Source: a virus. From it: DNA of 24,721 bases. Made by a program: the position numbers and the translations under genes. Below, one piece after another: positions 4,582 through 9,145 of this stretch. The notes under the pieces were generated by a model, which saw only the letters and a program-made list of their open reading frames with translations, made no database searches and was not told the origin of the DNA. Within the stretch, counting starts at the first letter, position 1; the number at the start of each line of letters is the position of its first letter. The DNA is taken from positions 1-24,721 of IMG/VR virus record IMGVR_UViG_3300025266_000041; one strand, written 5' to 3'.

Positions 4582-4606
4582 ATAGCGTTTAAAACCGCCA
4601 CAATAC

Positions 4607-4631
4607 AAAGGGGCTTCGGCCCTTTTTTTTT
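4607..4631 (+). terminator. Rho-independent terminator after the capsid gene
   Basis: An eight-pair stem, AAAGGGGC paired with GCCCTTTT (one G-U pair), is closed by a TTCG tetraloop and runs into nine T residues ending at 4631. C(UUCG)G loops are unusually stable. It lies 26 bases after the capsid stop. The next gene's Shine-Dalgarno (AAGGA, 4632-4636) starts right after the T-run, so downstream genes depend on readthrough, antitermination or another promoter. Confidence 0.88.
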
Positions 4632-4643
4632 AAGGAAAATACG

Positions 4644-7220: not shown

Positions 7221-7246
7221 GGCTACCTAGATCGGTGGCCTTTTTT
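7221..7246 (+). terminator. Rho-independent terminator after the holin gene
   Basis: GGCTACC and GGTGGCC form a seven-pair stem (one G-U pair) around a six-base loop, directly followed by six T residues. It ends the rightward lysis transcript. The TAG stop of the converging leftward gene lies inside the left arm, so the two operons meet tail to tail with overlapping ends. On the opposite strand the hairpin has no T-run. Confidence 0.82.
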
Positions 7247-7577
7247 CTGCCTCATCGTTATCCCACTCATGCTTATGCTTGATTGCCTCCGCGTCTATTT
7301 TATCAGCGTAATCTCTTAATAGTTTTGTGATTCTGTGAGAACCTTCACCATAATCATTTGGAATACTATCTAAAACGGTTTGTCTAAGTAGGTCTTCTAA
7401 TTTCATTATAAAAACATTACCTGCCTCACAGTTATGATTTTGGCAGAAATCACCCTCTCGCAATACAAAACCAATGGTAGGGTCTTCTGATCTTTCTACG
7501 CCATCATTCCAGCTAGTCAAATCAAAATCAAAATCAGGGTGTGTTGAACCGCATTCTGTACATTTTGGGAAAGTCAT
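7227..7577 (-). CDS. Hypothetical protein with zinc-ribbon-like N-terminus
   Basis: The 116-residue product begins TFPKCTECGSTHPDFDFD and later has CQNHNCEAG. The two Cys pairs (CxxC and CxxxxC) about 35 residues apart could bind zinc. The rest is acidic and helical (KLLRDYADKIDAEAIKHKHEW). It is the last gene of a four-gene leftward operon, and its ATG overlaps the stop of the preceding gene (ATGA). The Shine-Dalgarno is weak, which fits translational coupling. I do not recognise the family. The position near attP suggests a lysogen-benefit gene, not a virion gene. Confidence 0.7.
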   Translation of the reverse strand: MTFPKCTECGSTHPDFDFDLTSWNDGVERSEDPTIGFVLREGDFCQNHNCEAGNVFIMKLEDLLRQTVLDSIPNDYGEGSHRITKLLRDYADKIDAEAIKHKHEWDNDEAEKRPPI

Positions 7578-7951
7578 AGTCTATTCTTTCTTTTTGCCGC
7601 ATCATTTAGTGCAGTCGTTACAAATTCAGCAAGCTTTTGGCCTTTAGCAGCGTTAACCCATGCTGCCTTTTCGTAGGGATAACATCGCACAGTTAACACC
7701 GATGATTTAGTATCCTCTTTGCTGGCGTTAGTGTTGCCAGTGCTTCCATGTTTATTCATATTTGTTAACTGCCCTGAGTTAGTTTCCCACTTGTACGAAC
7801 CTTTGGCTGTTGCTTTATCAGATAACATCATTACATCACTTTCAGAATAAATAATGCTTGAAAGATCATCTGATTTTCTTTTTTTAAATATTAAGGCTCC
7901 TTCTCTCCATATTTTTTGCATTGCTAAATCAAAATCTGAATCATTGTTCAT
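7574..7951 (-). CDS. Hypothetical protein with C-terminal ribbon-helix-helix-like region
   Basis: The product has 125 residues. The last 45 look like a ribbon-helix-helix fold. A beta-like SSVLTVRCYP leads into helix EKAAWVNAAKG and then helix KLAEFVTTALNDAAKR, the pattern of Arc/CopG or DUF1778-type DNA binders. The N-terminal 75 residues are polar and not recognised. AAGGA is six bases before the ATG, and the ATG overlaps the stop of the upstream gene (TAATG). A ribbon-helix-helix protein in a small operon can be an autoregulator or an antitoxin. Which applies here cannot be told. Confidence 0.7.
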   Translation of the reverse strand: MNNDSDFDLAMQKIWREGALIFKKRKSDDLSSIIYSESDVMMLSDKATAKGSYKWETNSGQLTNMNKHGSTGNTNASKEDTKSSVLTVRCYPYEKAAWVNAAKGQKLAEFVTTALNDAAKRKNRL

Positions 7952-8265
7952 TATTTCGTCCTTTTTGAGCCGTAATTACTTAGGATACACCAGCCCCAAA
8001 AATCACCATCAATACCATCAATGTAAAAATCGTCCCAAAACAAGCCAGCTTTAAAGCCTTCACTTTTTAAAATCTGCAACGCAATCACAGCTTGCAGTGC
8101 GCCATCACCTACCCAATGCACATGACTGTCGGATAAATCAAACTCTTTTATTTCGTCACCATCTTCCCAGATAAAGCGATCAGCATTAGACATTTCAATT
8201 CCGTCAGTTGAACATTGCGTATGACTAAACATTTTAAAGTGCTTCAAGGTTAGTTCAAGATTCAT
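7951..8265 (-). CDS. Hypothetical protein, second gene of the attP-proximal operon
   Basis: The 104-residue product is acidic and aromatic-rich. Stretches such as HVHWVGDGALQAVIALQ and LFWDDFYIDGIDGDFWGW suggest a compact soluble domain. No catalytic motif, membrane segment or signal peptide is visible. A very good Shine-Dalgarno (GGAGGTGA) lies inside the final codons of the upstream gene, whose stop overlaps this ATG as ATGA. The family is not recognised. Confidence 0.72.
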   Translation of the reverse strand: MNLELTLKHFKMFSHTQCSTDGIEMSNADRFIWEDGDEIKEFDLSDSHVHWVGDGALQAVIALQILKSEGFKAGLFWDDFYIDGIDGDFWGWCILSNYGSKRTK

Positions 8266-8678
8266 GCGTCACCTCCAAAAAGCCACTCATTATCTTTAAT
8301 GAATTTATTAAGCGCAATCTCAACATCTGCATGGCCTTTGAACTCTTTAGCCTCTGTGACTGTCAAGAAGTAGCAGGTATTGAGGTCATGCCCAATAGCT
8401 TCTTTTGCTGCCTCAATCTCAGTTGGTGCGTCTTTAGGTGCGTAAAATTCGGATTCTTGGCAGTATCCTGTGCAAATAGCTTTGCCATGTTTACTGAGAA
8501 GTGCCGTTAAATTGTCTGGTATTTCATCGCCAAAACAAATAACAGCTCTTTCCATATTCCAATTTTCATAGCCAAAGTCGTGTACTTCACTTGCCATTTG
8601 AATGATGTGCTGTTCATTTTTAGCAAACCAAACACTGGGGCTTCTTTGGTGGGGTACTTCTACTATTATAATGCTCAT
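8262..8678 (-). CDS. Hypothetical protein, first gene of the attP-proximal operon
   Basis: The 138-residue product starts with a beta-like strand (MSIIIVEVPHQRSP) and alternates helices and strands without membrane segments. It contains scattered Cys and His (VICFGDE, CTGYCQESEFY) in no recognisable metal motif, and ends DNEWLFGGDA. AAGGAG lies seven bases before the ATG, and a good sigma70-like promoter lies about 60 bases upstream. It heads four overlapping genes that read toward the holin terminator. The function is unknown. Confidence 0.75.
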   Translation of the reverse strand: MSIIIVEVPHQRSPSVWFAKNEQHIIQMASEVHDFGYENWNMERAVICFGDEIPDNLTALLSKHGKAICTGYCQESEFYAPKDAPTEIEAAKEAIGHDLNTCYFLTVTEAKEFKGHADVEIALNKFIKDNEWLFGGDA

Positions 8679-8737
8679 AATCTACTCCTTGCTCCAAGTG
8701 CCGCTTGGTCGGTGGGGCTAACTCAACCCATATACGT

Positions 8738-8766
8738 ATTGTATATACATAACGGATAGATGTAAA
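8738..8766 (-). promoter_or_regulatory. Sigma70-like promoter of the four-gene leftward operon
   Basis: Read leftward, TTTACA (8761-8766) and TACAAT (8738-8743) are separated by exactly 17 bases, a near-consensus layout. Two small palindromes, GTATATAC (8741-8748) and ATACGTAT (8732-8739), cover the -10 and start region and could be an operator. The Shine-Dalgarno of the 138-residue gene follows about 45 bases downstream. Confidence 0.65.
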
Positions 8767-8839
8767 GGGTTAATAAAACAAAAGTCAACTCCCCCAAAGT
8801 AAAAAAAGGGGGGTCTGCGCGAACTCATATTATACTTAA

Positions 8840-8854
8840 TCGGTTTGAAACCGA
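8840..8854. repeat. Perfect 15-base palindrome in the attP-side intergenic region
   Basis: TCGGTTTGAAACCGA reads the same on both strands around one central G. It could be a protein-binding site or a small hairpin. It has no T-run, so it is not a simple terminator. A C5 run (8791-8795) and a G6 run (8808-8813) lie just upstream and could also pair. No gene is convincing here. Confidence 0.45.
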
Positions 8855-8896
8855 GAAAGTCCATCGATAAAAAATAATAAAATTCTTTAATATCCC

Positions 8897-9145
8897 CGCC
8901 TAATATACAGTGGTTAAAAAATAAAGAAGTGATGGTTTTAGCGGCCTGTTTTTTGCTCATTTGTTAGGCGAGGGAGTGGTATATTGTTGATTTATAAGGA
9001 AACGCATACAGATTGCAAATCCGTTTACCCCAGTTCGATTCTGGGTTCGGCCTCCATTATACGGGCGTTTCAGCGATAGTGTTTACTTTCGCCTAACACC
9101 GCCTAATATTTCGCCTAATATACAGTGCTGGTTTTATATACAGTA
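8897..9145. repeat. Integrase arm-type repeats flanking attP
   Basis: CGCCTAATATACAGTG occurs exactly at 8897-8912 and again at 9112-9127, about 100 bases left and 56 bases right of the tRNA-derived core. Shorter copies are CGCCTAACAC (9090-9099), CGCCTAATAT (9100-9109) and ATATACAGT (9136-9144). An inverted copy, TGTTAGGCG, is at 8962-8970. Clusters of short repeats on both sides of a core next to an integrase gene are the known layout of integrase arm sites. A weak IHF-like match overlaps 8981-8993 on the minus strand. Confidence 0.72.
9011..9056 (+). other. attP: attP core: 3' half of a tRNA-Cys gene
   Basis: The segment starts GATTGCAAATCC (anticodon loop with GCA), continues with a full T-arm (CCCAG, loop TTCGATT, CTGGG), then the acceptor strand TTCGGCC, a T discriminator and CCA. 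This is tRNA-Cys from the anticodon arm to the 3' end. No 5' half precedes it, and the bases before 9011 break one pair of the anticodon stem, so identity with the host probably begins near 9011. Integration at the matching bacterial attB would rebuild an intact tRNA-Cys. The integrase gene ends 96 bases to the right. Confidence 0.87.

Follow-up and report, generated by a model that had tools for sequence, protein, structure and literature searches.

A replaceable phage accessory operon with a predicted ribbon-helix-helix switch, laid out like acr-aca operons

What function could be served by 4 small genes that lie between the lysis genes and the attachment site of a temperate phage, and that are transcribed against the former? 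The window analyzed here is the entire 24,721-base IMG/VR record IMGVR_UViG_3300025266_000041, perhaps a genome fragment, and has the gene content of a temperate phage (portal, major head protein, exonuclease, endolysin, holin, integrase, excisionase, and terminase), with cI- and cro-like genes also present in its list of open reading frames. The cassette is placed between the holin gene and attP, and the attP core (approximately 9005-9056, plus strand) corresponds to the 3' part of tRNA-Cys(GCA). This assignment was taken straight from the sequence (ARAGORN makes no partial-tRNA calls) and agrees with the adjacent integrase gene, as integrase and excisionase genes come next after attP. Repeats of CGCCTAATATACAGTG at 8897-8913 and 9090-9130 flank attP and are likely integrase arm sites; in other phages with a different att site, the core of the attP-flanking repeat changes (TTCGGAA). 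Elsewhere in the window, between the major head protein gene and its next neighbor, a GGGGCTTCGGCCCT hairpin with a T-run behind it (4605-4643) is likely a terminator or attenuator.

A first-pass annotation had described 4 leftward genes overlapping stop-to-start, and all 4 minus-strand open reading frames were confirmed: gene A (8262-8678; 138 amino acids, pI 4.8) and gene B (7951-8265; 104 amino acids, pI 4.6), which encode acidic proteins, gene C (7574-7951; 125 amino acids), and gene D (7227-7577; 116 amino acids). The cassette does oppose the lysis transcript, whose intrinsic terminator (7221-7240, plus strand) overlaps the end of D. Purifying selection was evident in most homologue pairs of A (dN/dS 0.09-0.24), B (0.21-0.26), D (0.17-0.48), and the C-terminal half of C (0.11-0.24), which argues that these are real genes, while the N-terminal half of C is relaxed or fast evolving (approximately 0.7).

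Profile searches of A-D gave nothing significant in Pfam, PHROGs, NCBIfam, or the defense families of PADLOC, and the scores for TnpB_IS66 and Mistic fell far short of the cut-offs, so both were rejected as identities. No match was found among INPHARED phages by DNA or by proteins A, C, or the C-terminal module of C. Scans of IMG/VR with each of the 4 proteins returned 10-16 loci apiece. Homologues of A occur in 3 phage types; its structure model is usable (pLDDT 82), with no relative in the PDB and one viral protein match at E = 8e-6. Gene B is 93-97% identical between operons that otherwise differ. In D, the proposed zinc ribbon is supported by a CxxC...C(x2-4)C pattern whose cysteines C6, C9, C45, and C50 are invariant. 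A D profile produced only chance-level matches in the PDB.

Gene C is a fusion of 2 modules. Residues 1-64 (7760-7951, minus strand) elsewhere carry an HTH-like end (L019, L027, and L041), and residues 65-125 (7574-7759, minus strand) are a separate gene in most relatives or are fused to other N-termini (L033 and L040). The second module opens with an in-frame ATG at 7759 on the minus strand, and a separate short protein might also be made from this internal start. Its sequence suggests a ribbon-helix-helix (RHH) fold, as the first reading of the window had guessed. The profile matches are consistent in kind but below curated cut-offs (NikA-like, E = 2e-4 to 0.1; TacA1, 7e-4 to 0.06; HicB, 0.012), the best of them (E = 2e-4 to 0.012) having been obtained through the plasmid homologue P0006. 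With P0005/P0006 added, the top PDB sequences were DUF1778/KacA and CopG-family RHH proteins (E = 0.26-0.7) and AcrIF25; the last, at E = 0.23, is below significance and was left out of the evidence. An extended stretch followed by helices at residues 92-101 and 107-122 is predicted in a structure model of low confidence, which may be expected because an obligate dimer was folded as a monomer. Alignment of the RHH profile with BrnA and other RHH proteins by hhalign gave no significant match, and the operator described below was absent upstream of the RHH gene in the 2 plasmid relatives examined, of 4 weak ones.

The promoter (8738-8766, minus strand) has a −35 TTTACA (8766-8761), a 17-bp spacer, and a −10 TACAAT (8743-8738), matching the consensus at 10 of 12 positions. 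Promoter-like matches in general are not above shuffles in number (9 found versus 10.0 expected), but this promoter, together with the dyad on its −10, is kept in all related operons whose sequence extends far enough. The 2 palindromes once noted on the −10 fared differently. TGTATATACA is perfect and falls within WTGT-NN-RTACAAW, while the neighboring ATACGTAT is not conserved. The operator dyad ATGTATATACAAT (8738-8750, minus strand), the predicted RHH binding site, follows a family consensus of WTGT-NN-RTACAAT overlying the −10, and the exact motif is expected by chance approximately 0.002 times per 2.5 kb. The 5' leader (8679-8737, minus strand) contains a ribosome-binding site and predicted hairpins at 8729-8715 and 8708-8694, its RNA fold is no better than shuffles, and Rfam has no match in the cassette region. 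The sequence of the second hairpin recurs in relatives between cargo genes. A GGGGCTTCGGCCCC hairpin, often followed by ACCGACCAAGCGGCACTTGGAGCAAGGAG, is a repeated intercistronic element located just ahead of where cargo genes start, in the two phage types alike (L026:5632, L013:344, L014:689-1509, L037:6462-6696, L027:7250-7531, and L043:7107); it may act as a border for recombination or as a signal in the RNA.

Replacement of the segment by other cargo, which the first-pass annotation had proposed looking for, was found in the IMG/VR relatives. Head, lysis, and integration genes are conserved in related phages with another gene set at the position of the cassette, and across approximately 30 related contigs the interval is a patchwork in which small orphan genes of about 35 families are combined, a count that includes singletons and perhaps some spurious open reading frames. 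Breakpoints fall at gene and domain borders. Window positions 7759-8276 match L027 and L019 at 97% nucleotide identity and the match then stops, its borders being exactly the internal ATG of C and a point just before the start of B; positions 8671-8891 match L020 at 94% identity, and the genes downstream differ. These different gene sets refute the idea of A-D as a set 4-gene system: A, B, the N-terminal half of C, and D are interchangeable, and only the operator and the RHH module persist. The reading as a nonstructural accessory cassette at the prophage edge, adjoining attP, is supported.

Cargo proteins are mostly 60-140 residues long and mostly acidic (pI 4-5), and the stand-alone regulator is mostly basic. 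Orphans make up nearly the whole set. A SprT-like metalloprotease and a DnaJ-type zinc finger are the exceptions, each through a weak match, and HTH proteins also appear, again as weak matches. The metalloprotease (218-220 residues) is among the larger cargo (L024:2481-3146, L043:7157-7819, L044, and L056). No known Acr family was among the matches for A-D or for the cargo of relatives, and no cargo protein matched any other known counter-defense family. Families A, B, and D and several others were found in both operon types, and siphophage-like contigs (L011-L014 and L071-L077) have the same switch and cargo families in common with podophage-like contigs. In L011 and L013, the operon adjoins different structural genes. 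Three attP types, with 3' ends reading as tRNA-Cys, tRNA-His, and tmRNA, lie beside the operon (window 9005-9056; leaders of L005, L026, and L037; leaders of L040 and L043), and at least 2 kinds of integrase accompany it. The sole GTDB contig found with the RHH gene (L149) is a phage fragment of the same type in the Oceanospirillaceae MAG UBA1126, hinting at a marine gammaproteobacterial host.

If the middle of the operon is exchanged, how constant are its ends? A search of IMG/VR with an alignment of the 60-residue RHH module yielded 42 loci (for the operator count the window was added and one fragment set aside), and in 37 of these 42, WTGT-NN-RTACAAT with promoter hexamers lies 297-2344 bp upstream on the same strand; at the other 5, the contig ends 12-1428 bp upstream. 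A reverse search by the DNA pattern alone returned 75 loci. Among its family-leader loci, 24 encode the RHH protein downstream and 6 are on contigs that end within 160-920 bp. These counts include closely related contigs, and there are 29 distinct RHH-leader pairs. Loci with homologues of A or D and without the RHH gene (L008, L009, L010, L016, and L045) have no dyad. The 56-61-residue RHH protein is thus constant along with the promoter-operator, and that leader and RHH gene travel together while the middle is exchanged is as expected of a repressor-operator pair.

The 2 ends also covary. Distances between leaders correlate with distances between RHH proteins (Mantel r = 0.78, n = 25, p = 0.0003), and in 13 integrase-bearing operons the correlation is 0.73, or 0.69 once the effect of the integrase is removed. 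Proteins with Arg-Leu-Glu/Gln in the predicted beta-strand go with GTACAA operators (14/14) and those with Val/Ile-Leu-Thr/Asn with ATACAA operators (13/15), an association of residue and base with p = 2e-6 by a Fisher test that makes no correction for phylogeny. The architecture of the operon and the link between RHH protein and operator are well supported by computation.

The operator scan also reached other loci. The same dyad, TTGTNNRTACAAT, sits on the −10 of phage brnT genes (L082, L087, L098, L099, L108, L110, L123, and L144), with brnA behind brnT where the open reading frame was read, and Pfam confirms 3 of these loci. The dyad also precedes lone RHH genes in unrelated phages, confirmed by Pfam where tested. 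Both sets were chosen post hoc from the scan, and they lend independent support to the RHH fold of the module. TTTGTATGTACAATACTAACATA occurs in another conserved promoter, before a phosphoesterase-like gene of phage contigs (L085, L086, L091, L093, L094, L119, L135, L136, and L146); this promoter and the matches within genes were judged unrelated to the switch of the cassette.

With moderate confidence, we read the locus as an RHH-autorepressed mosaic accessory operon built like acr-aca operons, whose cargo would most likely act in counter-defense. On entry of phage DNA, the repressor would be absent and the leftward promoter would fire, so that the small cargo proteins (A, B, the N-module of C, and D) would be made early. 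The RHH protein would then dimerize on WTGT-NN-RTACAAT across the −10 and shut the promoter off, which would limit the burden on the host cell and curb antisense reading of the convergent lysis genes; a local reason for the shut-off would exist because the operon runs against those genes. The cargo would inhibit host immunity and be exchanged between phages as hosts change. We infer the early timing and the autorepression, like the role of the cargo, from the acr-aca plan, from known fusions of Acr proteins to repressors, and from a precedent in archaeal viruses. The co-occurrence and covariation of operator and RHH protein, the shared cargo, and the small, mostly acidic, orphan nature of that cargo favor this reading as a whole.

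Other readings of the operon were weighed. The earlier suggestion of a conversion or defense cassette holds as far as RHH-regulated, replaceable accessory genes are concerned, but a defense operon, like a toxin-antitoxin (TA) system, now appears less likely than counter-defense cargo given the lack of an obligate partner for the RHH protein, the lack of a PADLOC match, and the acr-aca plan. Were the cargo to protect or alter the lysogen, through lysogenic conversion or superinfection exclusion, low RHH-controlled expression at the prophage edge would be expected, and the own promoter, the mosaic cargo, and the position beside attP in 3 att types would all fit. We consider this unlikely, as no exclusion or defense family was matched, in the siphophage-like contigs the neighbors of the operon are terminase and portal genes and not an integrase, and autorepression would hold it low in lysogens. 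Controlled by this switch, the cargo might instead take over the host early in some way other than counter-defense, for example by acting on proteolysis or on host transcription or replication. Such a role would accommodate the weakly matched HTH proteins, metalloprotease, and DnaJ-type zinc finger, but we rate it as similarly improbable, since cargo that is so varied, and that one phage has and a close relative lacks, points to a function tied to the host strain, as with counter-defense.

A TA module, with the RHH protein as antitoxin and D or other cargo as toxin, seems very improbable to us. The RHH protein does resemble TacA1/DUF1778 antitoxins, D often sits directly after its gene, and brnTA in other phages uses the same operator. 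However, the operons of L005, L024, and L026 and those of the siphophage-like contigs end with the RHH gene and have no D, and L045 has D without RHH gene or operator; with neither needing the other across loci, an RHH-D pair was rejected. No gene always accompanies the RHH gene in the way of the constant pair of type II TA systems, no toxin family was matched, and a stand-alone protein of 56-61 residues is hardly long enough to include a toxin-binding tail as well.

Returning to counter-defense, we would go further only tentatively: the RHH protein and its operator may be a portable switch common to unrelated phages, and the approximately 35 orphan families may be immunity inhibitors, so that these operons would form a novel, RHH-regulated class of counter-defense operon. 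Were this so, some inhibitors would perhaps target immune systems not yet known, and in gene C an inhibitor would be joined to the protein that represses it. Counter-defense genes are difficult to recognize, as their products look like nothing described so far, and the RHH profile together with the DNA pattern serves as a sequence bait that pulls dozens of candidate genes from unannotated phage contigs. Repression of the RHH promoter by one 60-residue protein is a clear, testable prediction.

The closest known plan is that of acr-aca operons, in which variable small genes are followed by a regulator and an inverted repeat lies within the core promoter (PMC9410906). The cassette family has the same small variable genes and then a small DNA-binding regulator; in the mapped operons, nothing comes after the RHH gene except, in some, D or another short gene. 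It likewise has a core-promoter inverted repeat, in 37 of 42 RHH loci with the remaining 5 limited by contig ends, and resembles acr-aca in its mobile-element setting and antitoxin-like regulator. Known Aca proteins (Aca1-10) are, however, HTH and not RHH (PMC9410906), while the profile matches of the regulator here, all below cut-offs, are to RHH families only; because of this, and because no cargo is a known inhibitor, we do not file the cassette as an acr-aca operon. We found no RHH regulator of acr-aca-like operons of bacterial phages in the open-access literature, and the present one would add an RHH class to an HTH-only list. The inhibitor-repressor fusions AcrIIA15 and AcrIF24 (PMC10901769) join a cargo module to the DNA-binding domain of the operon in one protein, as gene C appears to, with HTH there in place of RHH.

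Early anti-defense genes of archaeal viruses are recognizable by a regulatory sequence that they have in common (PMC11065993), and there too a constant promoter or regulatory sequence stands ahead of diverse small orphan genes, but with archaeal promoters and single genes, whereas here one bacterial-type promoter serves each multigene operon. BrnTA has an RHH-type regulator, as is predicted for the cassette, and, in the phage copies found, the same dyad on the −10; the cassette differs in having no BrnT-like toxin, a regulator not significantly alignable with BrnA, and variable multigene cargo. Finally, as in phage morons, the cassette is an independent transcription unit of nonstructural accessory genes, with its own promoter and variable presence in relatives; unlike them, it combines changing cargo with a putative repressor-operator pair that stays constant and is common to unrelated phage types.
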